Shown one piece after another: positions 3 through 19,321 of a stretch of 25,944 nt of DNA (its first letter is position 1; each line of letters starts with the position of its first letter). Below the pieces are notes generated by a model that was given only the letters and a program-made list of their open reading frames with translations, searched no databases and was not told the origin of the DNA. A program made the position numbers and the translations under genes. Source of the DNA: a virus. The stretch spans positions 1 through 25,944 of the IMG/VR virus record IMGVR_UViG_3300032286_000709. The stretch is one strand, 5' to 3'.

Positions 3-629
3 GTGGACGATCAGGAGCGCACCAGCTCCAACATCAACCTGATCGAACGGTTCGCCGGTGCGGCGGCTCACGCTCTCGGGTTGCAGATGGTCGGTGACTT
101 GCTCGCGCTCGTCACTTCCAGCAGCTTCACCTCCGCGCTCACGCAGAGCTCGGCAACCTTCAGCTACGCCTCCGTAGTGTCGGCTGGAATCACCCTCAAC
201 AACGCAAACGTTCCCCAGCACGATCGGTACGCGGTTCTCGCCCCTTCGTTCTATGGCCGTCTCTTGAATGATTCGACCATCGTGGCGAACGCTCAGATCT
301 CCGGTGAACAGGCCCGCACGGCTGGCATCGGATCCGTTGCTGGGTTCAACATTAACATGTACAGCGCGGTTCCTTCCAACAGCATCACTCTCGGCGGATT
401 CTTCGCCCAGCGTGAAGCGCTCTTGATCGCAGCCCGCGTTCCCGAAATTCCCACTGGCGTCCCGATCCCCGGCGACATCAGCGTGGTGACGGAACCCCGC
501 ACCGGACTTTCTGTTCAAGTACGGGAGGCCTATTCTGTCCAAACCGGACAGCTGAGCAGAACCTACTGTCTTATTTACGGCTGCAAAGCCGGCGAGACCA
601 ACAGCCTCGTGCGTATCAACGGCAGCTAA
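3..629 (+). CDS. Major capsid protein, C-terminal part (5' end outside window)
   Basis: This is the C-terminal 208 residues of a probable HK97-fold major capsid protein, the subunit that builds the icosahedral head. The frame runs off the left edge, so the GTG at position 3 is probably internal. The segment APSFYGRLL followed by an Ala/Gly/Ser-rich beta region and the late YGCKAG segment resembles the P and A domains of coat proteins. There is no membrane segment or catalytic motif. It is followed by a strong hairpin and then by a head-completion gene, the normal place for a coat gene. The assignment rests on composition, residue patterns and position, not on a database match. Another abundant head protein is the main alternative. 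Confidence 0.7.
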   Translation: MDDQERTSSNINLIERFAGAAAHALGLQMVGDLLALVTSSSFTSALTQSSATFSYASVVSAGITLNNANVPQHDRYAVLAPSFYGRLLNDSTIVANAQISGEQARTAGIGSVAGFNINMYSAVPSNSITLGGFFAQREALLIAARVPEIPTGVPIPGDISVVTEPRTGLSVQVREAYSVQTGQLSRTYCLIYGCKAGETNSLVRINGS

Positions 630-640
630 TTCACTCGGGG

Positions 641-670
641 AGGGCGGTGGGCTGAAAGGCTCGCCGCCCT
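641..670 (+). terminator. GC-rich hairpin with GAAA tetraloop after the capsid gene
   Basis: The arms AGGGCGGTG (641-649) and CGCCGCCCT (662-670) pair over 9 bp with one G-U. Pairing continues inward to a GAAA loop at 654-657, giving about 13 bp in all. The sequence TTCCACTTT follows. The U tract is interrupted, so this may be a partial terminator or attenuator, or a 3' stabiliser that raises the coat mRNA above its downstream neighbours. Confidence 0.6.
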
Positions 671-692
671 TTCCACTTTAAGAAATCCTCAA

Positions 693-992
693 ATGTCTGA
701 ATTTACTGAATGCCTGAAGGAAAGCCTGGCGGCTCTCTACACCCAGACCGGCACCGCCGCCACCATCGGAACCACGAGCGTCACCGGGATCCTGTCCACA
801 ATTTCACGCAAAGAGAATGTCGAGCTGGGCGGTTTTGATTTGGATCTGAATTCCACGTTCACCATCGACCTGACCGCCATCTCATCGGCTCCAACAATCG
901 GATCCATTCTTGTGGCCAACTCCGTCAGCTACCGGGTGGCGTCTTTGGATACATCGGTCGGAAGCTACGTCCTCGGACTTCGAGAGGTTTAA
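693..992 (+). CDS. Putative head completion / head-tail connector protein
   Basis: This 99-residue protein sits directly after the coat gene. It has a short helical N-terminus with three Thr/Gly-rich turns, then beta-rich sequence ending in an RVASLD...LGLREV pattern. Small beta-rich proteins of about 100 residues at this position usually complete the head or join it to the tail. The start follows the sequence gaaatcctcaa, which lacks a clear Shine-Dalgarno box. No catalytic residues are visible. The role is inferred from size and position, and I do not recognise a specific family. The gene ends two bases before the glycosyltransferase start, so the inserted cassette begins immediately downstream. 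Confidence 0.5.
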   Translation: MSEFTECLKESLAALYTQTGTAATIGTTSVTGILSTISRKENVELGGFDLDLNSTFTIDLTAISSAPTIGSILVANSVSYRVASLDTSVGSYVLGLREV

Positions 993-994
993 CC

Positions 995-2680
995 GTGGCC
1001 ACCCGAAATCCTAAAATTTCAATTTACATGATCGCCGGCCACGAGGCGCAATTCATGGAACGCTGTCTCTCTGCATTTTCTGGATATTGCGACGAGTTGG
1101 TCGTCTGCATGGCGCAGGGATCCCGGCCGGACGACGGCACCCGGGCGATCGCTGAAAAGGCTGGAGCCGTCATCACGGAATATCACAACGCACCGGCAGG
1201 CGCCGATTGGCCGCATATCGACAACTTTGCGGCCGCTCGCAACAAAGCACTGGACGCCTGCTCCGGGGACTATGCCGTGTGGATCGACTGCGACGACCTA
1301 CCCCATAAAGACCTAAAAAACGCGTTTAAAAGGGCCGTGGCTGCGTTTGAATCCGATCCGAAGGTCGGCATCTATGCCGGAGTTTATGACGTTATAAACG
1401 CCAAACTGCGCCCAGTACGGGAACGGATGGTCAAGAAAATAGAAAACGTATGGACGGGCCGGTGGAACTACGCTGTTCATGAGGCGCTGTTACCGCTTCC
1501 GGGATTCACTTCAGTGGGCGAGCAGGCGGTCTGGGTCGAACATCACCCTGGTGGATACAAGCAGGGAAGTGCCGATCGCAATCTCCGCATTCTAAAAGCG
1601 CAACTGAGCGAGGCTGGAAAGTACGCGTACTACTACCAGCAAGAACTTTTCCTATCCAACAACCGGGCGGAATCGATCACATGGTCGAACGCTGCCGCCC
1701 ACTGGCCAGATCAGGAACCGACGCTGGCCTATGAGGCGATGAACAATCTGGCGAGCGCAACGCCTGACCGCGAGAAGCGGATCGAGCTTTATCACAAGGC
1801 GCATCACATGAATCCCAGCCGCCGGGAATCTCTTTACTATCTGGCCCGGGAGGAAGCGTCTGTCGGCCGCTGGTCGTCGGCTTACCATTATCTCAAGTCG
1901 GCGATGGTTCAATCGGATCCCGGCGTGATGGTCTGGAACGCCCAGCGCACGGTCTATGACTTTGAATGCATCGATCTCTATATTGCGGCGTGCCGAGCCG
2001 TAGGCGACAATGAAGAGGCTGATCGGGTGACCGCAAGCTGGCGGAAGATTCGTCCGGTCAAAATTTCAATCTGTCACGCCACCCGCGGGCGACCGCAGGA
2101 AGCCATCAACGCCCGGATCCTATGGATGAAAAAGGCGGCTGATCCGGCTGCCGTCGAGTGGATCTTTTCCTGCGACGACGATGATGAAAAAGCGAAGACG
2201 CTCAAACCGTGGGGGCCGGTCATGGGCAAGGGTAGCTGCATCGCCGCTTGGAATAGGGCGGCCGCTGTGGCGCAAGGCGAGATTATTGTGCAGGGCTCCG
2301 ACGATTGGGATCCACCGCTGCACTGGGATCAAATCCTGATCGATAGGTTGGGCGATACCAGCAAGCCGAAGATTTTGGCGATTAGCGACGGCCATCGGAA
2401 GGATGACCTGCTGTGCATGGCGATCATGACCCGGGCGAGACTAGAAGATCAGGGTGCCATGTTTGCGGCTGAATATGATCAATGCTCGGGGATATGGTCG
2501 GACAACGAATTCAGCCACAGGGCGAAATTTGACGGAGTGATCGTGAACGCAAAAGACGTGGTCTTCAAACATAACAACCCATTCTTCACCGGCGCACCAC
2601 AGGACGAAGAATTCAAAAAGCACAACGCCAAAGAAAACTACACGCTGGGAGAAAAGATTTTTAAGGAACGCAATCCGTGA
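995..2680 (+). CDS. Two-domain GT-A (GT2-like) glycosyltransferase with central TPR-like region
   Basis: This 561-residue protein has three parts. Residues 7-190 are a GT2-type GT-A domain, with an N-terminal KISIYMIAGHE strand and a metal-binding DCDD at 98-101 (WIDCDD). Residues about 225-345 are helical and TPR-like (YHKAHHMNPSRRESLYYLA). Residues 355-561 begin with KISICHATRGRP and carry CDDDD and a second acidic SDDWD at 435-439, indicating a second GT-A fold. GT2 enzymes transfer sugars from nucleotide donors. Whether both domains are active is unknown. The GTG start has GAGAGG 8-9 nt upstream. It is the first gene of a five-gene cassette, and its stop overlaps the next GTG by 4 nt. A target on the virion or on host surface glycan is inference. 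Confidence 0.8.
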   Translation: MATRNPKISIYMIAGHEAQFMERCLSAFSGYCDELVVCMAQGSRPDDGTRAIAEKAGAVITEYHNAPAGADWPHIDNFAAARNKALDACSGDYAVWIDCDDLPHKDLKNAFKRAVAAFESDPKVGIYAGVYDVINAKLRPVRERMVKKIENVWTGRWNYAVHEALLPLPGFTSVGEQAVWVEHHPGGYKQGSADRNLRILKAQLSEAGKYAYYYQQELFLSNNRAESITWSNAAAHWPDQEPTLAYEAMNNLASATPDREKRIELYHKAHHMNPSRRESLYYLAREEASVGRWSSAYHYLKSAMVQSDPGVMVWNAQRTVYDFECIDLYIAACRAVGDNEEADRVTASWRKIRPVKISICHATRGRPQEAINARILWMKKAADPAAVEWIFSCDDDDEKAKTLKPWGPVMGKGSCIAAWNRAAAVAQGEIIVQGSDDWDPPLHWDQILIDRLGDTSKPKILAISDGHRKDDLLCMAIMTRARLEDQGAMFAAEYDQCSGIWSDNEFSHRAKFDGVIVNAKDVVFKHNNPFFTGAPQDEEFKKHNAKENYTLGEKIFKERNP

Positions 2681-3441
2681 TTCACACGCACAACGCGTTC
2701 AGACTTGGCGACAATCTGGTGCAGCTAAACTTTCTGCGCCGCCTATGCCTGCAAAATCCTGAACTAGAGATCACGCACTATTACAGTCCTGACCTTTGCA
2801 GATTTGAGGAAATCGACGCGCTCCGGTCTGATATTTCACGCCGGCTATTTCTAAAGACGATTGACCAAGCTCCCAAAGAGAGCATCGACTCCTGGCGAGG
2901 ATCCGACGGCTACTGGTACGGTCATCCCGACAGATTGGATTTTGCAAAGTTTCACCTGTGCTGGTTTGAGGAACTGGCCAGCCGGATGGCCGTAAAAAAT
3001 CCAATACGCAAAACGGAAGATCTCTTGTTTGATTATTGGGCGCTCGAATCGTTCATTCCCATGACCGAAGACTTCGACGTCGTCGTCATCAATTCGCCGG
3101 GGCTGTCGAATCAATTCACAAATTTCAACAAAGACGACTTCACCGTTTTAATTTCAAAACTTGTCGCAAAAGGCCATCGAGTAATCACAACGGCGCCGAC
3201 TGAAATCTGTCCTGTCTTTGAAAATAAAAACGTCACTTGGATCGGAGCCACGGCCGCCAAGGCGAAAGCAATCATCGGAACATCCACCGGGCCGAGCTGG
3301 CCGTGCCTGAACGTTCACAACAAAAACGCCTTTCACTTGCTTTGCGCCGATACCGAAAACGTAATCCTTACTGAACGCGGGCAGATGGCCAGAAGCGCAT
3401 TCCACGCCATTCATATTTTGGAAGAAGTGGGGCTGCTTTGA
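2677..3441 (+). CDS. Putative GT-B-fold (heptosyltransferase-like) glycosyltransferase
   Basis: This 254-residue protein has an N-terminal FRLGDNLVQLNFLRRL segment, typical of the GDxxxxxPxxxxL start of GT9/ADP-heptose transferase-like GT-B proteins. Near residue 200 it has a GTSTGPSWPCL segment, where such proteins bind the nucleotide (usual form S.tGp.hla...). At 254 residues it is shorter than typical GT9 enzymes (about 320-350), so it may be a minimal or degenerate GT-B protein. It starts with GTG inside the upstream stop (GTGA), and the next gene begins inside its own stop, which suggests translational coupling. The cassette context supports a role in glycan synthesis. The exact substrate cannot be read, and a family outside GT9 is possible. 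Confidence 0.55.
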   Translation: MIHTHNAFRLGDNLVQLNFLRRLCLQNPELEITHYYSPDLCRFEEIDALRSDISRRLFLKTIDQAPKESIDSWRGSDGYWYGHPDRLDFAKFHLCWFEELASRMAVKNPIRKTEDLLFDYWALESFIPMTEDFDVVVINSPGLSNQFTNFNKDDFTVLISKLVAKGHRVITTAPTEICPVFENKNVTWIGATAAKAKAIIGTSTGPSWPCLNVHNKNAFHLLCADTENVILTERGQMARSAFHAIHILEEVGLL

Positions 3442-3959
3442 AAGCTGAGCTGACGAAAGCCATGGAAACTTTGGCCTGGGATCCGGCCGTCCGGTTCATT
3501 GGATACGGCGTAAAAGTGGGCGGTCGGGCCGCCGGCACACTGAACCGCGTTCCAGATTCTCAACTGATCGAGACGCCTGTGGCTGAAAATCTTATGGTTG
3601 GAATGGCGACCGGCCTAAGTCTGGCAGGACTGAAGCCCGTCGTTTTTATCGAAAGAATGGATTTCATTCTGAACGCCTTGGACGCAATCGTGAACCATCT
3701 AGGCGCTGCGGCCAAAATAAGCTGCGGGCAATTCTATCCGGCCGCCATCATCAGAGTGGTCGTGGGAAATAAAAAGAAGGCACTTTTTACAGGGCCAACG
3801 CACACGCAGGACTTTACCCAGGCGATTAGGGGAATGGTGGACTTTCCCGTCATCGATCTTTCGCACCCTTCGCAGGTGGCCGGTGAATATAAATTCGCAC
3901 TTGAGGGACTGAGCTGGGGTCGATCGACCATGCTTGTCGAACGAAAGGACGATTGGTGA
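3438..3959 (+). CDS. TPP-dependent enzyme, pyrimidine-binding half (E1-beta / transketolase Pyr domain)
   Basis: This 173-residue protein matches the Pyr domain of 2-oxoacid dehydrogenase E1-beta and transketolase-type enzymes. ETPVAEN contains the conserved Glu (E50) that activates the aminopyrimidine of TPP. It is followed by GMATGLSLAGLKPVV and a DFILNALDAIVNH segment, as in E1-beta. It ends after the Pyr domain, so the usual C-terminal transketolase domain of about 150 residues is absent. Its partner should be the PP-domain protein at 5044-5658, since neither alone carries both cofactor halves. It starts with TTG overlapping the previous stop. The reaction is unknown: decarboxylation or two-carbon transfer on a keto acid or sugar is possible. 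The small E1-like pair may resemble the two-subunit decarboxylase layout, but the motifs are E1-like. Confidence 0.8.
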   Translation: MKAELTKAMETLAWDPAVRFIGYGVKVGGRAAGTLNRVPDSQLIETPVAENLMVGMATGLSLAGLKPVVFIERMDFILNALDAIVNHLGAAAKISCGQFYPAAIIRVVVGNKKKALFTGPTHTQDFTQAIRGMVDFPVIDLSHPSQVAGEYKFALEGLSWGRSTMLVERKDDW

Positions 3960-5047
3960 AGCAGAACAAATACAGCGACCTAAAAATCTTTTCGTTCCCG
4001 GATAAAATCCACAGCTTCCGAGACGATATTATCACGGCCCCAATCTACGTGCGGATCAAACCGACGAATATCTGCAATCATGCGTGCCGTTTTTGCGTTT
4101 ATTCTGACGGCACAACTCGGCCTAAAGATCGCCCGGATCTACATCTGCAAGCCGGAATGCACACCAGCATGAACGAACGGGACGTCATGCCTACGGCCAA
4201 GGCGATGGAACTGATTGAGGATCTTTCCAACATAGGCACCAAGGCCGTGACGTTCAGCGGAGGCGGCGAACCGCTACTGCATAAAGATATTGTTCAAATT
4301 ATGACTAAGACTGTTTCGTCCGGGTTGGATCTTTCCATCATCACCAACGGCCAGCTTCTCACCGGTGAACGGGCGGAAGTATTGGGCAACGCCAAGTGGG
4401 TCAGGATTTCCATGGACTACACCAGCGCTGAACAAATGGCCGCCAGCCGAAACGTGCCGGATCGATCATTTGATTCGGTCATGCAAAATATAAAAAACTT
4501 TTCCAATACAAAAACCGAAAGCTGCGATGTTGGAATCAATTTCATCATTACCCGTTATAATTACGAAGGGCTCGTTCCATTTGCAAAAGAGTTGAAGGAA
4601 TGCGGGGTGAGCAACGTCCGCTTTTCGCCCGTCTATGTTCAGAACTTTAAGGAATATCACGGTACGATTGCGACCAGGGTGCGTGAACAGCTTGCGGAAT
4701 GTCAGTCATTCTGTGACGAAGATTTCACGATCAATACGACCTATGATCTAGACAGTCCAAGCAAGTCGCCGCTCCGGCCGTTTCATCGTTGCCTATATGC
4801 TCAAGCCGTTTGCGTGGTAGGTGCCGATCTGGACATTTACGCCTGCCACAATACGGCATACGCAAATCACGGCCGGATCGCATCAATGAAGAATCAAACA
4901 TTCAGTCAGGCATGGTTCGGCGATGAGGCGAAGGCATGGCATAAGAACTTCAATCCCGGCGTGAGCTGCCTGCATGAATGCGCCAATCACGCGAAGGTTG
5001 CGCTGTTTGAAAAACTGGCAACCGACAGCCATGACGCCTTTGTATGA
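3956..5047 (+). CDS. Radical SAM enzyme with SPASM/twitch-like C-terminal cluster
   Basis: This 363-residue protein has the radical SAM CxxxCxxC motif (CNHACRFC, Cys at about residues 40, 44 and 47). That motif binds the [4Fe-4S] cluster that cleaves S-adenosylmethionine. The SAM-binding SGGGEPLL follows near residue 102. The C-terminal quarter has several more cysteines (HRCLY, AVCVV, YACHN, SCLHEC), consistent with a SPASM or twitch domain holding an auxiliary cluster. I chose the GTG at 3956 because it makes the same GTGA overlap as elsewhere in the cassette. A TTG at 3953 is in frame. It lies between the two halves of the TPP enzyme, so a joint pathway is likely. The substrate could be a sugar, a peptide or a cofactor-bound unit, and none is shown by the sequence. 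Confidence 0.85.
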   Translation: MKQNKYSDLKIFSFPDKIHSFRDDIITAPIYVRIKPTNICNHACRFCVYSDGTTRPKDRPDLHLQAGMHTSMNERDVMPTAKAMELIEDLSNIGTKAVTFSGGGEPLLHKDIVQIMTKTVSSGLDLSIITNGQLLTGERAEVLGNAKWVRISMDYTSAEQMAASRNVPDRSFDSVMQNIKNFSNTKTESCDVGINFIITRYNYEGLVPFAKELKECGVSNVRFSPVYVQNFKEYHGTIATRVREQLAECQSFCDEDFTINTTYDLDSPSKSPLRPFHRCLYAQAVCVVGADLDIYACHNTAYANHGRIASMKNQTFSQAWFGDEAKAWHKNFNPGVSCLHECANHAKVALFEKLATDSHDAFV

Positions 5048-5658
5048 ATAAACAAGACCTGATCGATTTTGAGCTGCGGATCAAAGCCCTTTTTGAGCAG
5101 GGGAAACTGCCCTATCTGATCCACCTTTGCGGTGGCAACGAAGATCAACTGATCGAAATCTATAAAGAAATCCGCCCTGGCGATTGGATCTTTTCAACCC
5201 ATCGATCGCATTATCACTACCTTTTGGCCGGCGGGGATCCCGACGCACTGGAACAGATGATCAAAGATGGCAGATCCATGTTCGTCTTTGACCGTAAATT
5301 AAATTTTTACACTTCCAGCGTGCTGGCTGGGACATGCGGGATAGCGGCCGGAGTCGCGCACACGCTCAAAGAACAGGGCAGCGCATCAAAGGTATGGTGC
5401 TTTTTAGGCGACGGGGCAGAGGATGAGGGTCACTTTTATGAAGCCGTGAACTATGTCGCAGGCTCTGGCCTGCCTTGCACCTTTATCATCGAGGACAACG
5501 ATCGGTCGGTTGATACGTCCAAAGCAGCCAGGGGAAAAGCGACAATGACTTGGCCGGATTGCGTCCGGCGCTATTCCTACATGCCAACGTTCCCCCACGG
5601 CGGTGCTGGGTGCAAAACGATGGTCACTTTTGATCCATCGATTCGCCCGATCTGGTGA
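5044..5658 (+). CDS. TPP-dependent enzyme, pyrophosphate-binding half (E1-alpha-like)
   Basis: This 204-residue protein is the PP domain of an E1-alpha-like TPP enzyme. Its GDG at 122-124 is followed after 27 residues by ND (152-153), the classical TPP/Mg motif. It also has THRSHYHYLLAGG (51-64), matching the His-bearing loop of E1-alpha proteins, and FYTSSVLAGTCGIAAGVA. E1-alpha proteins are usually about 320-400 residues. This one starts near the core and ends soon after a distinctive PTFPHGGAG segment. It begins with ATG overlapping the radical SAM stop (ATGA). With the 3438-3959 protein it completes one cofactor site. No lipoyl-domain or E3 partner is present, so it is unlikely to feed a dehydrogenase complex. 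A ligase, decarboxylase or ketol-transfer reaction fits better (inference). Confidence 0.82.
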   Translation: MNKQDLIDFELRIKALFEQGKLPYLIHLCGGNEDQLIEIYKEIRPGDWIFSTHRSHYHYLLAGGDPDALEQMIKDGRSMFVFDRKLNFYTSSVLAGTCGIAAGVAHTLKEQGSASKVWCFLGDGAEDEGHFYEAVNYVAGSGLPCTFIIEDNDRSVDTSKAARGKATMTWPDCVRRYSYMPTFPHGGAGCKTMVTFDPSIRPIW

Positions 5659-5675
5659 CAACAACAGTTTAGAAT

Positions 5676-6122
5676 ATGCCCGCCGTCACCATGCTCGATC
5701 GCCTTATCGAAGGCGCTTTCCAGGAACTACTTTCCGCCACCGTAACTGGGCAGGACTACCACCTGTCGCACGATCTGACCGAAAACAAACCGCCATCGAT
5801 CGTCATTAAAGCGACCATGGGAACAGAGGAACCCGTGCAGGGATCCGGCGTGTTCAGCGTCCCGGTCGAGATCATTCTGGAACAGAGCTATGACGACACG
5901 ACACTGGCGGCACATACACAAAAATGCTCGAAAATTCTTCAGGCGTTTTATGATACAAGCAGCCTGACGGCCCGGCTGAACGCCACGACAGCGATTGGCG
6001 CGGCTCGTTGCTACAACGCAAAACTGGAAAGCAGTGAGGCGGAGGCCGACAACGAGGAGCGCAGTATGAAGCGAAACTTCAAGCTGGCAGTGATCGCCTA
6101 TCCAAACTCAACAGCGAGTTGA
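5676..6122 (+). CDS. Putative tail completion / tail terminator protein
   Basis: This 148-residue protein opens the tail module. It has an N-terminal amphipathic helix (MLDRLIEGAFQELL), then beta strands containing a VPVEIILEQSYDD segment and a final FKLAVIAYP strand. This pattern is common in small neck proteins that cap the tail tube (lambda gpU-like or minor tail completion proteins). The location just before a tube-like gene supports the role. The start has no good Shine-Dalgarno box. It is separated from the cassette by 17 nt, so the cassette sits cleanly between head-completion and tail-completion genes. The family is not recognised with certainty. Confidence 0.5.
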   Translation: MPAVTMLDRLIEGAFQELLSATVTGQDYHLSHDLTENKPPSIVIKATMGTEEPVQGSGVFSVPVEIILEQSYDDTTLAAHTQKCSKILQAFYDTSSLTARLNATTAIGAARCYNAKLESSEAEADNEERSMKRNFKLAVIAYPNSTAS

Positions 6123-7481: not shown

Positions 7482-8272
7482 AATTGACGATTGATCAAAA
7501 AAGGCTGACCAAGGCACTGGCCCTGTGGGGAAAACTAACGAAAGAGGAGCAGGCGAAAGAGCTGCGATCGTCCGGCCGCGCGCTGGCAGTCAGGTTGACC
7601 AACGCAACCCAGCCTTTTGGAATGAATGCTGATGCCCGCAAAAAAGGAGAGAACGCAATCCTGCGGGATATTGCGGCGATCACAAAGCCGTTGAACAAGG
7701 AATGGTACGCAGAAGCGCAAAGGATGCGGCAATTTGATCCGGGTGCATTCAGAAGGAGATTCACGACGAAGGATGGGAGAGTGTGGCTCGAGGAACAGGA
7801 CTACGAACTGAATCCTTCAAACATTAAGGAATTTCATCAAAAAATGAGGAATAGAAGCACAGGCAGAACCAAGACTGCCGGGATGAAAACCAGAGATATA
7901 GGAAGGCACGGCGCTGCCGATCGTGGGTACGTATTAGATAAAGTTCAGGCAAAATATATAAAAGAAACGCAGAAGAAAGTCGGCATCGCAAAAGCCGGAT
8001 GGGCGGAATGCGCTTCAATGCTTGGGGGATTCGCCAGGGTAAAAGGCGTTGGATCTGTTCAGGGATGGATTCAGAAGCTGATTTCCAAGTACGGGAAAGG
8101 CTCCGTGACTGTGACCGACAAGTACGTGGAGCTGAAAAACAGCATCCCATGGATTGGCCGGGCGCTCAGCCGTTCCAATTTACAGAAGACTCTTGACATC
8201 CAGCGAAACACACTAGCCAAAAGCGTGATTGAAATTGTGAAACATAACTCAAAAAAAGCAGGATTTGCCTAA
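7478..8272 (+). CDS. Tail-associated protein between chaperones and tape measure
   Basis: This 264-residue basic protein starts in an ATGA overlap with the frameshift extension and ends one base before the tape measure start. The N-terminal 90 residues are helical and charged. The middle is Lys/Arg/Gly-rich (NRSTGRTKTAGMKTRDIGRH), and the C-terminal part has short strands followed by a helix. It may be a minor tail protein or a helper of tape measure assembly. I do not recognise the family and see no enzyme motif. Composition becomes more AT-rich towards its 3' end, continuing into the tape measure gene. Confidence 0.5.
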   Translation: MKLTIDQKRLTKALALWGKLTKEEQAKELRSSGRALAVRLTNATQPFGMNADARKKGENAILRDIAAITKPLNKEWYAEAQRMRQFDPGAFRRRFTTKDGRVWLEEQDYELNPSNIKEFHQKMRNRSTGRTKTAGMKTRDIGRHGAADRGYVLDKVQAKYIKETQKKVGIAKAGWAECASMLGGFARVKGVGSVQGWIQKLISKYGKGSVTVTDKYVELKNSIPWIGRALSRSNLQKTLDIQRNTLAKSVIEIVKHNSKKAGFA

Positions 8273-8273
8273 T

Positions 8274-9749
8274 ATGGACGCCGTCGCAACAGCCAAGCTG
8301 ACACTAGAAAAAAGCTCGTTTGAAAGCGGACTAAAACAAGCAGAAGGAGCTGTTGCAAACTTTGCTAAACAAACTGCTGGGCTACTCGCCGGCGCGTTTG
8401 CGTTTGATAAAATTCTAGAAGGATTCTCGTCTGCCATTGAAAAGGGCGACCAGCTTCAAGATCTGGCAAATCGTTTCGGAGTTTCAGCGTCCGCCCTTCA
8501 GGAAGTCGGGAACGCCGCATCATTGTCAGGGGCAGGAGTTGAAGACGTGGCCAGCGCCATGAACAAGCTGGCCGTGAATGCAGGAAAGGCCATCGGCGGC
8601 GATGACGCTATGGTCAAAGCATTTAAAGATATTGGGCTTAGCGTCGCAAAACTCCAAGGGATGTCTCCTCAAGATATTTTTTATGCTCTAAGTGAATCCA
8701 TACAAAACACGGCAAACCCACTTGAAGCGTTTGCCAAGGCTCAAGCTGTGGCCGGTAAAAGTGTGGGAGCTCTAATGGAAACGCTTAGAATGGGGCCGGC
8801 GGCCATTCAGGAAATGGGCGACGCGATGGGGATATGGTCGGACGATGAAATCAGTCAACTTGGAGCCGCCTCTGATGCAATCAAGGAATTTCAAAACACT
8901 CAAACAATTTGGTTTGGTAAGACGTTAATCGGTATTTCTAGTTTAATTGAAAGATACCAAGATCTGATAGAAGCAATTTATTTGCATATTAGAGCGAATC
9001 GAGATGAAAACCTAGACGCCGCTGGCCGTGCTTCTTTGTATGAACAATCAGCCGGGAAAACTGCCGATGTCGTTATGGGTAGAAGCGACATACAAAAGAA
9101 TGCGTCGAAAGGGACTTCTGCTGTCGCTGATAAGGAAGCAAGCAACGCAACAAAAAAAGCTCAAAAAGAATTTGAGCAGTCAGAAAAAGATGCAGCAAAA
9201 CAAGAGTTAAAACTTATTGAGGCAAAAATCAAAGGAGAGGAAGACGCTCAAAATCTTGCTAAAAAGTTTGAAGAAGATGCTGCAAAAAAGAAGGAAAAGG
9301 CAATTCAAGACGCAGCCGACGATGAGGCAAAATATCAGGAAGAACTTTTTAAGGCTGAAATGGATGCGGCCAAATTTGAAAGCTCAGAGAAAATTCGCCT
9401 TATGCGTTTGCCAAGGGAAACACAGAAAGCCGAAGGCGGAGCCGCCGGGCAACGCCTAGACATTGCGGCCGGGCTGGGTGGCGGAGTGGCATCAGAAGTC
9501 GCCAAAGCAAGGGCAAAGGCTGAATCCGATCAGAAAAAAATATCAGCCAAACAACTTGAAGAACAAGTTTTGGCCTCAACTTCGGCAACAACTGATAAAG
9601 GAGCTCAAAGGACGATGGCCAGTCGCCGTTCCGAGTACATCCAAACGCAGGCCAAGAAAGAGGCCGAAGGCAAAACTACTCTCGACGACATCAACAAAAC
9701 CCTGCAAGACGCGCTGGCGAAGCTAACGTCTGCGCCACTGGTGAGCTAA
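8274..9749 (+). CDS. Tail tape measure protein
   Basis: This 491-residue protein is predicted to set tail length and to be ejected with the DNA. The N-terminal region (residues 15-60) has FAKQTAGLLAGAFAFDKI, then QLQDLANRFGVSASALQEVG, a pattern very common at the start of tape measure proteins. Residues about 280-370 are a Lys/Glu/Ala-rich coiled coil. The ATG at 8274 is preferred because AGGA lies 10 nt upstream. An in-frame TTG at 8265 would overlap the previous gene. It is short for a tape measure. Using the usual rule of about 0.15 nm per residue, it implies a tail near 70-75 nm. The gene is AT-richer than its neighbours. There is no peptidase or lysozyme domain. Confidence 0.85.
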   Translation: MDAVATAKLTLEKSSFESGLKQAEGAVANFAKQTAGLLAGAFAFDKILEGFSSAIEKGDQLQDLANRFGVSASALQEVGNAASLSGAGVEDVASAMNKLAVNAGKAIGGDDAMVKAFKDIGLSVAKLQGMSPQDIFYALSESIQNTANPLEAFAKAQAVAGKSVGALMETLRMGPAAIQEMGDAMGIWSDDEISQLGAASDAIKEFQNTQTIWFGKTLIGISSLIERYQDLIEAIYLHIRANRDENLDAAGRASLYEQSAGKTADVVMGRSDIQKNASKGTSAVADKEASNATKKAQKEFEQSEKDAAKQELKLIEAKIKGEEDAQNLAKKFEEDAAKKKEKAIQDAADDEAKYQEELFKAEMDAAKFESSEKIRLMRLPRETQKAEGGAAGQRLDIAAGLGGGVASEVAKARAKAESDQKKISAKQLEEQVLASTSATTDKGAQRTMASRRSEYIQTQAKKEAEGKTTLDDINKTLQDALAKLTSAPLVS

Positions 9750-18101: not shown

Positions 18102-18467
18102 ATGATCTCGGGGCGTCTCCACGATACAGCCATGAAACTCCGCCAAGAGGACGCCGCCCTTTCACTCCGCCAATTTGGCGCCGCTTATAATCTAGGATAC
18201 GCCAAAATCAAACAACTGCGGGAAATGCATGGATTTCCCCTAATCGCGGGAAAGGTAATTCCAAGCGACTTTGATCAATGGCGGAAGGAGCAGGCTGGCC
18301 TACGTTCACAGCGTCCCGCAAATCCTCCACGCAGTGTCGCTGATAAAGCTCGTGAACTAACGTCGAGGAATGATTCACGAGTCGCATGGCGACTGATTGA
18401 GAGCAGCCTGCAAGACGCAGTCGCGTCACTCGGGTTACCCGCAAAGAGTGAAAACAATGACCTTTAA
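18102..18467 (+). CDS. Excisionase-like HTH DNA-binding protein
   Basis: This 121-residue protein has LSLRQFGAAYNLGYAKIKQL at residues 20-40, then EMHGFPLIAGKVIPSDFDQW. This is the MerR/Xis-type winged HTH pattern in which a helix-turn-helix is followed by a small wing. Excisionases of this type bend att DNA to direct the integrase. It follows the RHH gene and points towards the integrase. Its last 260 nt overlap the integrase gene on the other strand, covering the active-site region, which is unusual. An internal ATG at 18132 is possible. The C-terminal 60 residues are less certain as real coding sequence. Confidence 0.55.
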   Translation: MISGRLHDTAMKLRQEDAALSLRQFGAAYNLGYAKIKQLREMHGFPLIAGKVIPSDFDQWRKEQAGLRSQRPANPPRSVADKARELTSRNDSRVAWRLIESSLQDAVASLGLPAKSENNDL

Positions 18468-19305
18468 GACCGCAAATATCGAGCAACCTACGCCAGCACA
18501 GCGACGCTCGGGTGCGGGGAACTTCACAGGTAACCTCACGGCCTTCCGTTTTCATGGCCTTCAGCATGGGCTCGATGGCGGCCGGGATCGGAATGCTGAA
18601 CGATTTTCCGGTTCCGCCCTTGGGGCAGGGGAACGTCAGGATCCGGTTTTTGAGATCAACGCAAGAAAGCGGGATCTGCGTTTCACGGAGACGACAGCCG
18701 GTGGCCAAAGCAATCTCAAAGGAAACCTTCATCCATTCCGGGACGCCTTCTATGGACAGAGCTTTCCGCACAATTTTTATCTCATTATCCGAAAAAACAG
18801 GTTTTACGCGGGCGATCGGGCCCCGTTTAATTCGGTAATCGAGCAAGGCAACGGAGTCCATCTTTCCAAGCAGTCGGCCCTGACGGTGAATCCATTTAAG
18901 AATCTTCAAATCTTGGCACGCCTGGTTCCGACCGGCCTGTCCGCCAGACGTGCGGGGAAGGTTTTGGCGCCATTTCAAATAAATTTCGCAGTCATTAGCG
19001 GAAAATACTTGCAGACTTATTTTTTTCTCATAAATAAATCGCTCAAGATGTTTCCACGAATTCAAGTAATAAACTTTTGTAAGAGCAGAAACGGGGTGAT
19101 TCTCGATCAAATCATTCACCCAGTCGTGGCCGCATTTCGCCGTGTTTTCGTGAACGCCAAGTCGGGCAGCTTCCGCAACTGCCTTGGCCCGGTGCAGGGT
19201 ATTATCGATGCGATAGCGGGTGGCCTTACTGCGCCACTTTCCGTCTTCGTTTTTGTAGCGAATGAAGTACCAGGGGGAGCCTCGTTTAACGTAGGAAAAG
19301 GCCAT
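18208..19305 (-). CDS. int: Tyrosine recombinase integrase
   Basis: This protein has about 365 residues from the ATG at 19303-19305 (a GTG two codons earlier is also in frame; numbering below uses that GTG). The N-terminus is Arm-type (FSYVKRGSPWYFIRYK), followed by a SAM-like core-binding domain. The catalytic set is R207 in TGCRLRE, K231/K236 in CPKGGTGKS, H288-x-x-R291 in FHSLRVT, H314 in VNHSS and Y323 in HELYQRH. All residues needed for site-specific recombination are present. The gene is next to a tRNA-derived att site. It transcribes leftward, opposite the early operon, and overlaps the excisionase-like gene by 260 nt, so expression of one could affect the other. Confidence 0.9.
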   Translation of the reverse strand: MAFSYVKRGSPWYFIRYKNEDGKWRSKATRYRIDNTLHRAKAVAEAARLGVHENTAKCGHDWVNDLIENHPVSALTKVYYLNSWKHLERFIYEKKISLQVFSANDCEIYLKWRQNLPRTSGGQAGRNQACQDLKILKWIHRQGRLLGKMDSVALLDYRIKRGPIARVKPVFSDNEIKIVRKALSIEGVPEWMKVSFEIALATGCRLRETQIPLSCVDLKNRILTFPCPKGGTGKSFSIPIPAAIEPMLKAMKTEGREVTCEVPRTRASLCWRRLLDICGLKGHCFHSLRVTRVTRLRLAGCSQSVAMRLVNHSSTLVHELYQRHCVEDLRDAVNVGQPAPSAIDQSRLELPFPRLGEIHAFPAVV

Positions 19306-19321
19306 GGTCACAACGGTAACA

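Follow-up and report, generated by a model that had tools for sequence, protein, structure and literature searches.

What are enzymes of sugar transfer, thiamine pyrophosphate (TPP) chemistry and radical S-adenosylmethionine (SAM) chemistry doing together among the structural genes of a phage? The question is raised by positions 995-5658 of virus record IMGVR_UViG_3300032286_000709, whose positions 1 to 25,944 are the window analysed here. This region contains five open reading frames (ORFs), all on the + strand and without internal stops, in which an initial annotation saw one five-gene cassette. Our comparisons confirm the five genes as real, intact and recurrent, and divide them differently: the region consists of one core gene and a four-gene exchangeable module at 2677-5658. 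The genes and the exchanged block are the following.

995-2680, + strand: glycosyltransferase family 2 (GT2) / tetratricopeptide repeat (TPR) / GT2 protein, with a GmaR/SunS-like GT2 domain (residues ~5-206), a TPR-like region (~246-353) and a second GT2-like domain (~354-551)
2677-3441, + strand: predicted GT9-fold (heptosyltransferase-like) glycosyltransferase of 254 aa (AlphaFold2 model), the first gene of the exchangeable module
3438-3959, + strand: TPP beta half of 173 aa, pyrimidine-binding domain only, with invariant Glu50 and His122
3953-5047, likely start 3956, + strand: radical-SAM enzyme with a SPASM/twitch-like C-terminal region (PF04055, 2.6e-19)
5044-5658, + strand: TPP alpha half of 204 aa, pyrophosphate (PP) domain with GDG(122-124)...N152 (E1_dh, PF00676, 4.1e-17)
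2682-5669, + strand: exchanged block (module borders), defined by DNA homology to contig L111

Close relatives were found by a head-protein scan, blind to the cassette. All contigs compared here are environmental and come partly from the same sites, and our counts are of contigs, not of independent events; at most 80 loci were taken in per scan, and counts are among the matches listed. All backbone relatives with a visible GT2 position have this gene, which is a core, fixed gene of the phage lineage, separate from the exchangeable module. The whole slot, from the GT2 gene to the gene at 5676-6122, is readable in 24 contigs; 12 of these carry the module (GT9, TPP-beta, radical SAM and TPP-alpha) and 12 carry other genes. 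Six slots hold a 211-aa methyltransferase with a 222-aa gene, and four a 161-aa methyltransferase with the same 222-aa gene. The remaining two contain a DUF5672 protein, a methyltransferase-like protein and the 222-aa gene (L130), or two further ORFs and a GT47 exostosin-like protein (L117).

The borders of the exchange are sharp. DNA homology between the window and L111 covers 6-2681 at 90% identity, is absent beyond this point and resumes at 5670 at 88%; the neighbouring tail proteins of L111 are 97-99% identical. The first breakpoint is one base past the GT2 stop, and the second is six bases upstream of the start codon that follows. Because homology stops and resumes exactly at gene borders, 2682-5669 is exchanged as a block. 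A single five-gene cassette is therefore rejected, as the first gene stays where the other four are exchanged.

The gene arrangement recurs across dozens of contigs, far beyond what a chance order would give, and the carriers are small freshwater phages. Distinct full-length copies are all intact except for single boundary cases, and for the TPP and radical-SAM genes the ratio of nonsynonymous to synonymous substitution rates (dN/dS), where estimable, is 0.009-0.12, with saturation in many pairs. Intact frames and purifying selection rule out a pseudogene or an assembly artefact. This synteny across many viral contigs bears out the initial proposal of a dedicated, conserved phage module; neither of the two observations named as speaking against it, confinement to bacterial polysaccharide loci and disrupted frames in related phages, was made, the genes being found mainly in phages and with intact frames. 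The 4-nt overlaps annotated throughout are present at three junctions (2677/2680, 3438/3441 and 5044/5047), and the fourth, at 3953/3959, is 7 nt with a TTG start or 4 nt if the start is the GTG at 3956. Pfam assigns four of the five ORFs (Glycos_transf_2, Transket_pyr, Radical_SAM and E1_dh). A promoter/terminator scan gave no signal above chance.

The core protein 995-2680 matches Glycos_transf_2 (PF00535, 5.5e-11) in Pfam and phrog_13126 and phrog_14945 in PHROG. Profile comparison aligns its residues 5-206 with GmaR (22ao, 4.3e-17), the transferase that puts GlcNAc on flagellin, and gives a further match to the peptide S-glycosyltransferase SunS (7msp, 1.3e-11). A TPR profile match in the middle of the protein (9.7e-32, best stretch ~246-306) completes the GmaR-type layout of a GmaR-homologous GT2 domain followed by TPR.

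No family match by sequence was found for 2677-3441 in Pfam, PHROG or NCBIfam. Its AlphaFold2 model (pLDDT 93.9) assigns it to the GT9 fold of the GT-B class, in agreement with the GT-B-like protein first annotated there. WaaC is matched with Z 14.1 over 236 residues, and the GT9 structure 3tov, WaaF and TibC with Z 14.0, 14.0 and 13.3; the top six rows are all GT9 (WaaC, WaaF and 3tov, Z 13.8-14.1). Other GT-B enzymes have Z near 10 or lower, two chloroplast NADH dehydrogenase-like (NDH)-supercomplex chains (Z 13.0 and 12.6) ranking between them and TibC, and Foldseek gives a match of 7.6e-7. The likeness to the heptosyltransferases WaaC, WaaF and TibC extends in fold across the full 254 aa and includes a GD motif near the N-terminus, but the phage protein is shorter and has no sequence-family match. 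The same motif occurs in the 222-aa gene that takes part in the alternative modules; profile comparison gives no support for homology between the two genes (probability 1.1%).

The best matches of both TPP halves are the E1 subunits of pyruvate dehydrogenase (PDH). The beta half is matched by Transket_pyr (PF02779, 4.1e-7) and, in profile comparison, by E1-beta structures (2.8e-14), and the alpha half by PDH E1-alpha structures (4.2e-18). G122, D123, G124 and N152, the GDG...N motif for TPP/Mg, are invariant in the alpha-half alignment; in the beta-half alignment, Glu50 is invariant and aligns to the catalytic Glu of E1-beta, and the E1-beta-type His of THTQ is kept. That the two halves form one enzyme, as initially annotated, is supported by phages that encode them fused: several have a single protein of ~390-403 aa, and the fused protein of L063 (10001-11173) matches the phrog_34187 family over its full length (6.3e-153). 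The alpha half maps to positions 13-195 of phrog_34187 and the beta half to 240-403. This family is annotated as of unknown function, and the present reading offers a function hypothesis for it.

The phage halves would be unusually small carboligases. The final ~20 residues of the alpha half show a weak likeness (insignificant score) to the very end of PDH E1-alpha, as though ~130 internal residues had been lost relative to that protein. No lipoyl E2/E3 partner is seen beside the TPP pair, so the activated two-carbon (C2) unit is expected to be passed to a different acceptor.

In the radical-SAM enzyme, the cysteines of the CX3CX2C motif (41, 45 and 48) and the GGE motif G104-G105-E106 are invariant, as expected of the family. 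Four more invariant cysteines follow past the core (C280-X17-C298 and C339-X3-C343), the number required for one BtrN-like twitch auxiliary cluster. Four cysteines hold the auxiliary cluster of BtrN, whose step in 2-deoxystreptamine synthesis falls to a Zn/NAD dehydrogenase in other producing organisms. The fold of the model matches SkfB (Z 23.4), DesII (Z 22.7), BlsE (Z 20.9) and BtrN (Z 15.4). DesII, BlsE and BtrN act on aminocyclitols or sugar nucleotides and share the radical-SAM fold with the phage protein at low sequence identity; the likeness to BtrN includes the four-Cys cluster and, as described below, replaceability by a Zn dehydrogenase. A radical-SAM gene of a large phage (L056:7142-9265) contains an apparent intein, with Hint motifs, before the third cysteine of CX3CX2C.

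Radical-SAM loci were also searched independently; of the 80 listed, 63 have enough flank. The E1-type TPP pair is present in 58 of these and the GT9-like gene in 56. The remaining five (L236, L240, L242, L245 and L271) have a transketolase-type TPP enzyme instead and keep GT9 and radical SAM. The replacement pair comprises a Transketolase_N (4.4e-12, 213 aa) and a Transket_pyr domain (1.6e-22, 151 aa), and is accompanied by a methyltransferase in L236, L240, L242 and L245; in L271, from 3494 onward, the partner with the pyrimidine domain was identified by visual inspection of the third frame. The co-occurrence of the radical-SAM and TPP enzymes is thus not driven by the query. In L236, the split transketolase-type pair and a 230-aa methyltransferase of this lineage occupy 3203-5001 beside the same radical-SAM gene. 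DNA of the window is homologous to L236 at 249-3416, at 3957-5043 and from 5651, so that the change is confined to the two TPP genes.

The redox partner is exchanged as well. Among 94 loci, located chiefly by way of the TPP alpha gene, 78 have a radical-SAM gene, 12 a Zn alcohol dehydrogenase gene, none both and four neither. At least three of the last four are cellular and have other radical-SAM genes (L082, L083 and L086, from Deltaproteobacteria, Desulfobacterales and Nanoarchaeota metagenome-assembled genomes); their short E1-type pairs are located near radical-SAM and glycan genes. The Zn dehydrogenase accompanies fused TPP genes and also split ones (L065, L072, L073 and L080), and on the TPP tree its label requires three changes, at least two of them forced by well-supported branches. 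In cyanophages S-SM2 and P-TIM68, the Zn dehydrogenase and fused TPP genes have carbohydrate kinase, epimerase, nucleotidyltransferase and phosphoheptose isomerase genes around them. The "transketolase central region" proteins of these phages and phrog_34187 belong to the same TPP family as the window proteins, the cyanophage versions differing in being fused and in having a Zn dehydrogenase in place of the radical-SAM enzyme. The initially noted combination of the TPP pair with a radical-SAM enzyme is supported; the enzyme is not obligatory, a Zn dehydrogenase taking its place elsewhere.

L085, a Prochlorococcus single-cell contig, also has a Zn dehydrogenase and a fused TPP gene, and the opposite strand has genes resembling those for a phosphatase, a kinase and an epimerase of heptose type. 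A short-chain dehydrogenase/reductase follows several fused TPP genes and is beside the pair in L084, but was rejected as a general partner.

The genes, their families and folds, their conservation, the module borders and the swap partners are direct observations. Together with precedents from other systems they lead us to a model, which we regard as having an even chance of being right, in which a core protein-type glycosyltransferase works with an exchangeable module that builds a C2-branched sugar for the virion. The radical-SAM enzyme would turn a sugar nucleotide of the host into a keto-sugar by oxidation (or other activation), a job that the Zn-dependent alcohol dehydrogenase would do in other phages; this dehydrogenase role is supported, not proven, by the analogy to BtrN. 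The split minimal E1-type TPP enzyme would then draw on a 2-oxo acid (e.g. pyruvate) for a C2 unit and add it to the ketone, yielding a C2-branched sugar. Finally, the GT9-fold and GT2/TPR/GT2 enzymes would transfer the sugars to a virion protein of the same operon, and module exchange would alter the terminal sugar shown by otherwise near-identical phages.

Precedents for such chemistry come from antibiotic biosynthesis. E1-like pairs (AviB1/AviB2, Pau11/Pau12 and EvdU5/EvdS3) are the proposed source of the acetyl branch that keto-sugars of avilamycin, paulomycin and everninomicin receive, and C2 addition to ketones by KbDH-alpha/beta was shown in vitro (PMC4753412, PMC10338323, PMC12247030). 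In miharamycin and amipurimycin, split transketolases are proposed to C-branch a ketone made by an oxidoreductase. Branching is the best-precedented reading of the phage module, in which both TPP families proposed for C-branching occur, always next to an enzyme that putatively oxidises; the initial idea of a carbon-extended or otherwise modified sugar largely stands in this form. The antibiotic pairs, of the alpha-ketoacid dehydrogenase-like type (aKADH2), resemble the phage enzyme in being two-subunit E1-alpha/beta-like TPP enzymes in a sugar setting with glycosyltransferases, where the keto-sugar must be supplied. They differ from the minimal phage halves (204 + 173 aa), which are split or fused, have a radical-SAM or Zn-dehydrogenase partner and are located in a virion operon. 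The miharamycin/amipurimycin enzymes resemble the two-gene transketolase-type pair of L236; this pair occurs in a few relatives and not in the window, and the known enzymes are uncharacterised Streptomyces proteins. We found no paper that brings phages together with radical SAM, glycosyltransferase, transketolase and auxiliary metabolism.

Several points weigh against this model. The link to the antibiotic branching enzymes is by analogy and not by phylogeny, and the reaction, the sugar, the step order and the acceptor are inferred. The GT9 fold suggests donors of the ADP-heptose type, not the donor of known branching pathways, and the module encodes no sugar-nucleotide supply. The TPP halves, of similar length in relatives, are far shorter than usual E1 subunits and the beta half lacks the C-terminal transketolase domain of a full-length E1, so that activity is not assured. 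The radical-SAM model is of only moderate confidence (pLDDT 75.9), with low values at the C-terminus and near the first cluster, and peptide-modifying SPASM enzymes, among them the top match SkfB, have the same fold.

As acceptor, a virion protein is favoured because the core enzyme is a GmaR/SunS-type glycosyltransferase with TPR and is positioned in the structural operon by the head protein. Phages are known to glycosylate their own virions: glycosyltransferases encoded by mycobacteriophages Che8, Corndog and Myrna modify proteins of the capsid and the tail tube; in the part of that work available to us, TPP or radical-SAM sugar-building enzymes are not reported. The main rival keeps the same sugar chemistry and places the product on a host surface glycan, for receptor masking, seroconversion or superinfection exclusion. 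GT9 enzymes typically make lipopolysaccharide (LPS), cellular kin of the TPP pair sit among glycan genes, and a weak phage integrase match on the - strand (18208-19311, PF00589, 3.6e-6) suggests a temperate phage. Against this, the genes are tightly overlapped inside a structural operon, no flippase-like gene is seen in the module and the core glycosyltransferase resembles protein glycosyltransferases, and we judge the host-glycan destination unlikely.

Similarly, we consider it improbable that the TPP enzyme catalyses another C-C reaction, either ketol transfer or cleavage changing sugar length, or 2-oxo acid decarboxylation supplying an acyl group. A transketolase-type pair can replace the E1-type pair, and acetoin:2,6-dichlorophenolindophenol oxidoreductase (Ao:DCPIP OR) is in the same enzyme superfamily. 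Butanediol/acetoin catabolism also pairs a Zn dehydrogenase with an E1-type enzyme, the acetoin enzymes AcoA/B cleaving the product of the Zn butanediol dehydrogenase. The absent E2/E3 partner and the recurrent glycosyltransferase and methyltransferase neighbours, in place of catabolic genes, argue against this reading. The rank of SkfB could also mean that the radical-SAM and TPP enzymes have no part in glycosylation, acting on a peptide or producing a small molecule, and that their genes simply lie next to those of the glycosyltransferases; this is very unlikely, since the GT9-like gene travels along in most radical-SAM loci and the block is exchanged with other glycan-type genes between the same glycosyltransferase and tail gene. 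Least probable by far is a viperin-type antiviral nucleotide enzyme (pVip), despite a PADLOC pVip match (2.4e-23) and an NCBIfam viperin match over the radical-SAM core. The NCBIfam score is 70.9 against a cut-off of 180 bits, both matches end near residue 254, short of the four further invariant cysteines, and TPP and glycosyltransferase neighbours are near-constant; we rejected viperin-like defence on the sub-cut-off score and the uncovered C-terminal Cys region.

If the C2-branching model is correct, phages encode a route to branched sugars, which has elsewhere been put forward mostly for antibiotics and some LPS, and mechanistically unrelated enzyme families replace one another around a constant reaction logic. 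A broader idea, which we hold more tentatively, is that phages own a mix-and-match C-branching chemistry, in which GT9, any minimal TPP carboligase (split or fused E1-type, or split transketolase-type) and any oxidising partner (radical SAM or Zn dehydrogenase) are block-exchanged within a virion operon and vary virion sugars, so that almost identical phages would show different branched sugars that are rare elsewhere. Diversification of virion sugars by block exchange, with a parallel in bacterial O-antigens, becomes testable.

The five ORFs are flanked by a head protein and a small gene on one side, and by 5676-6122 and the genes up to the tape measure on the other.

3-629: major-head-protein fragment (PHROG match 3.7e-18)
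693-992: small gene between the head-protein fragment and the five ORFs
5676-6122: first downstream gene, directly after the module
8265-9749: tape-measure protein, a downstream structural gene

The terminase of one relative has weak matches to many hosts. The head protein 3-629 has a 26.5% match to a protein of Verrucomicrobia phage P8625, a possible hint to the host.

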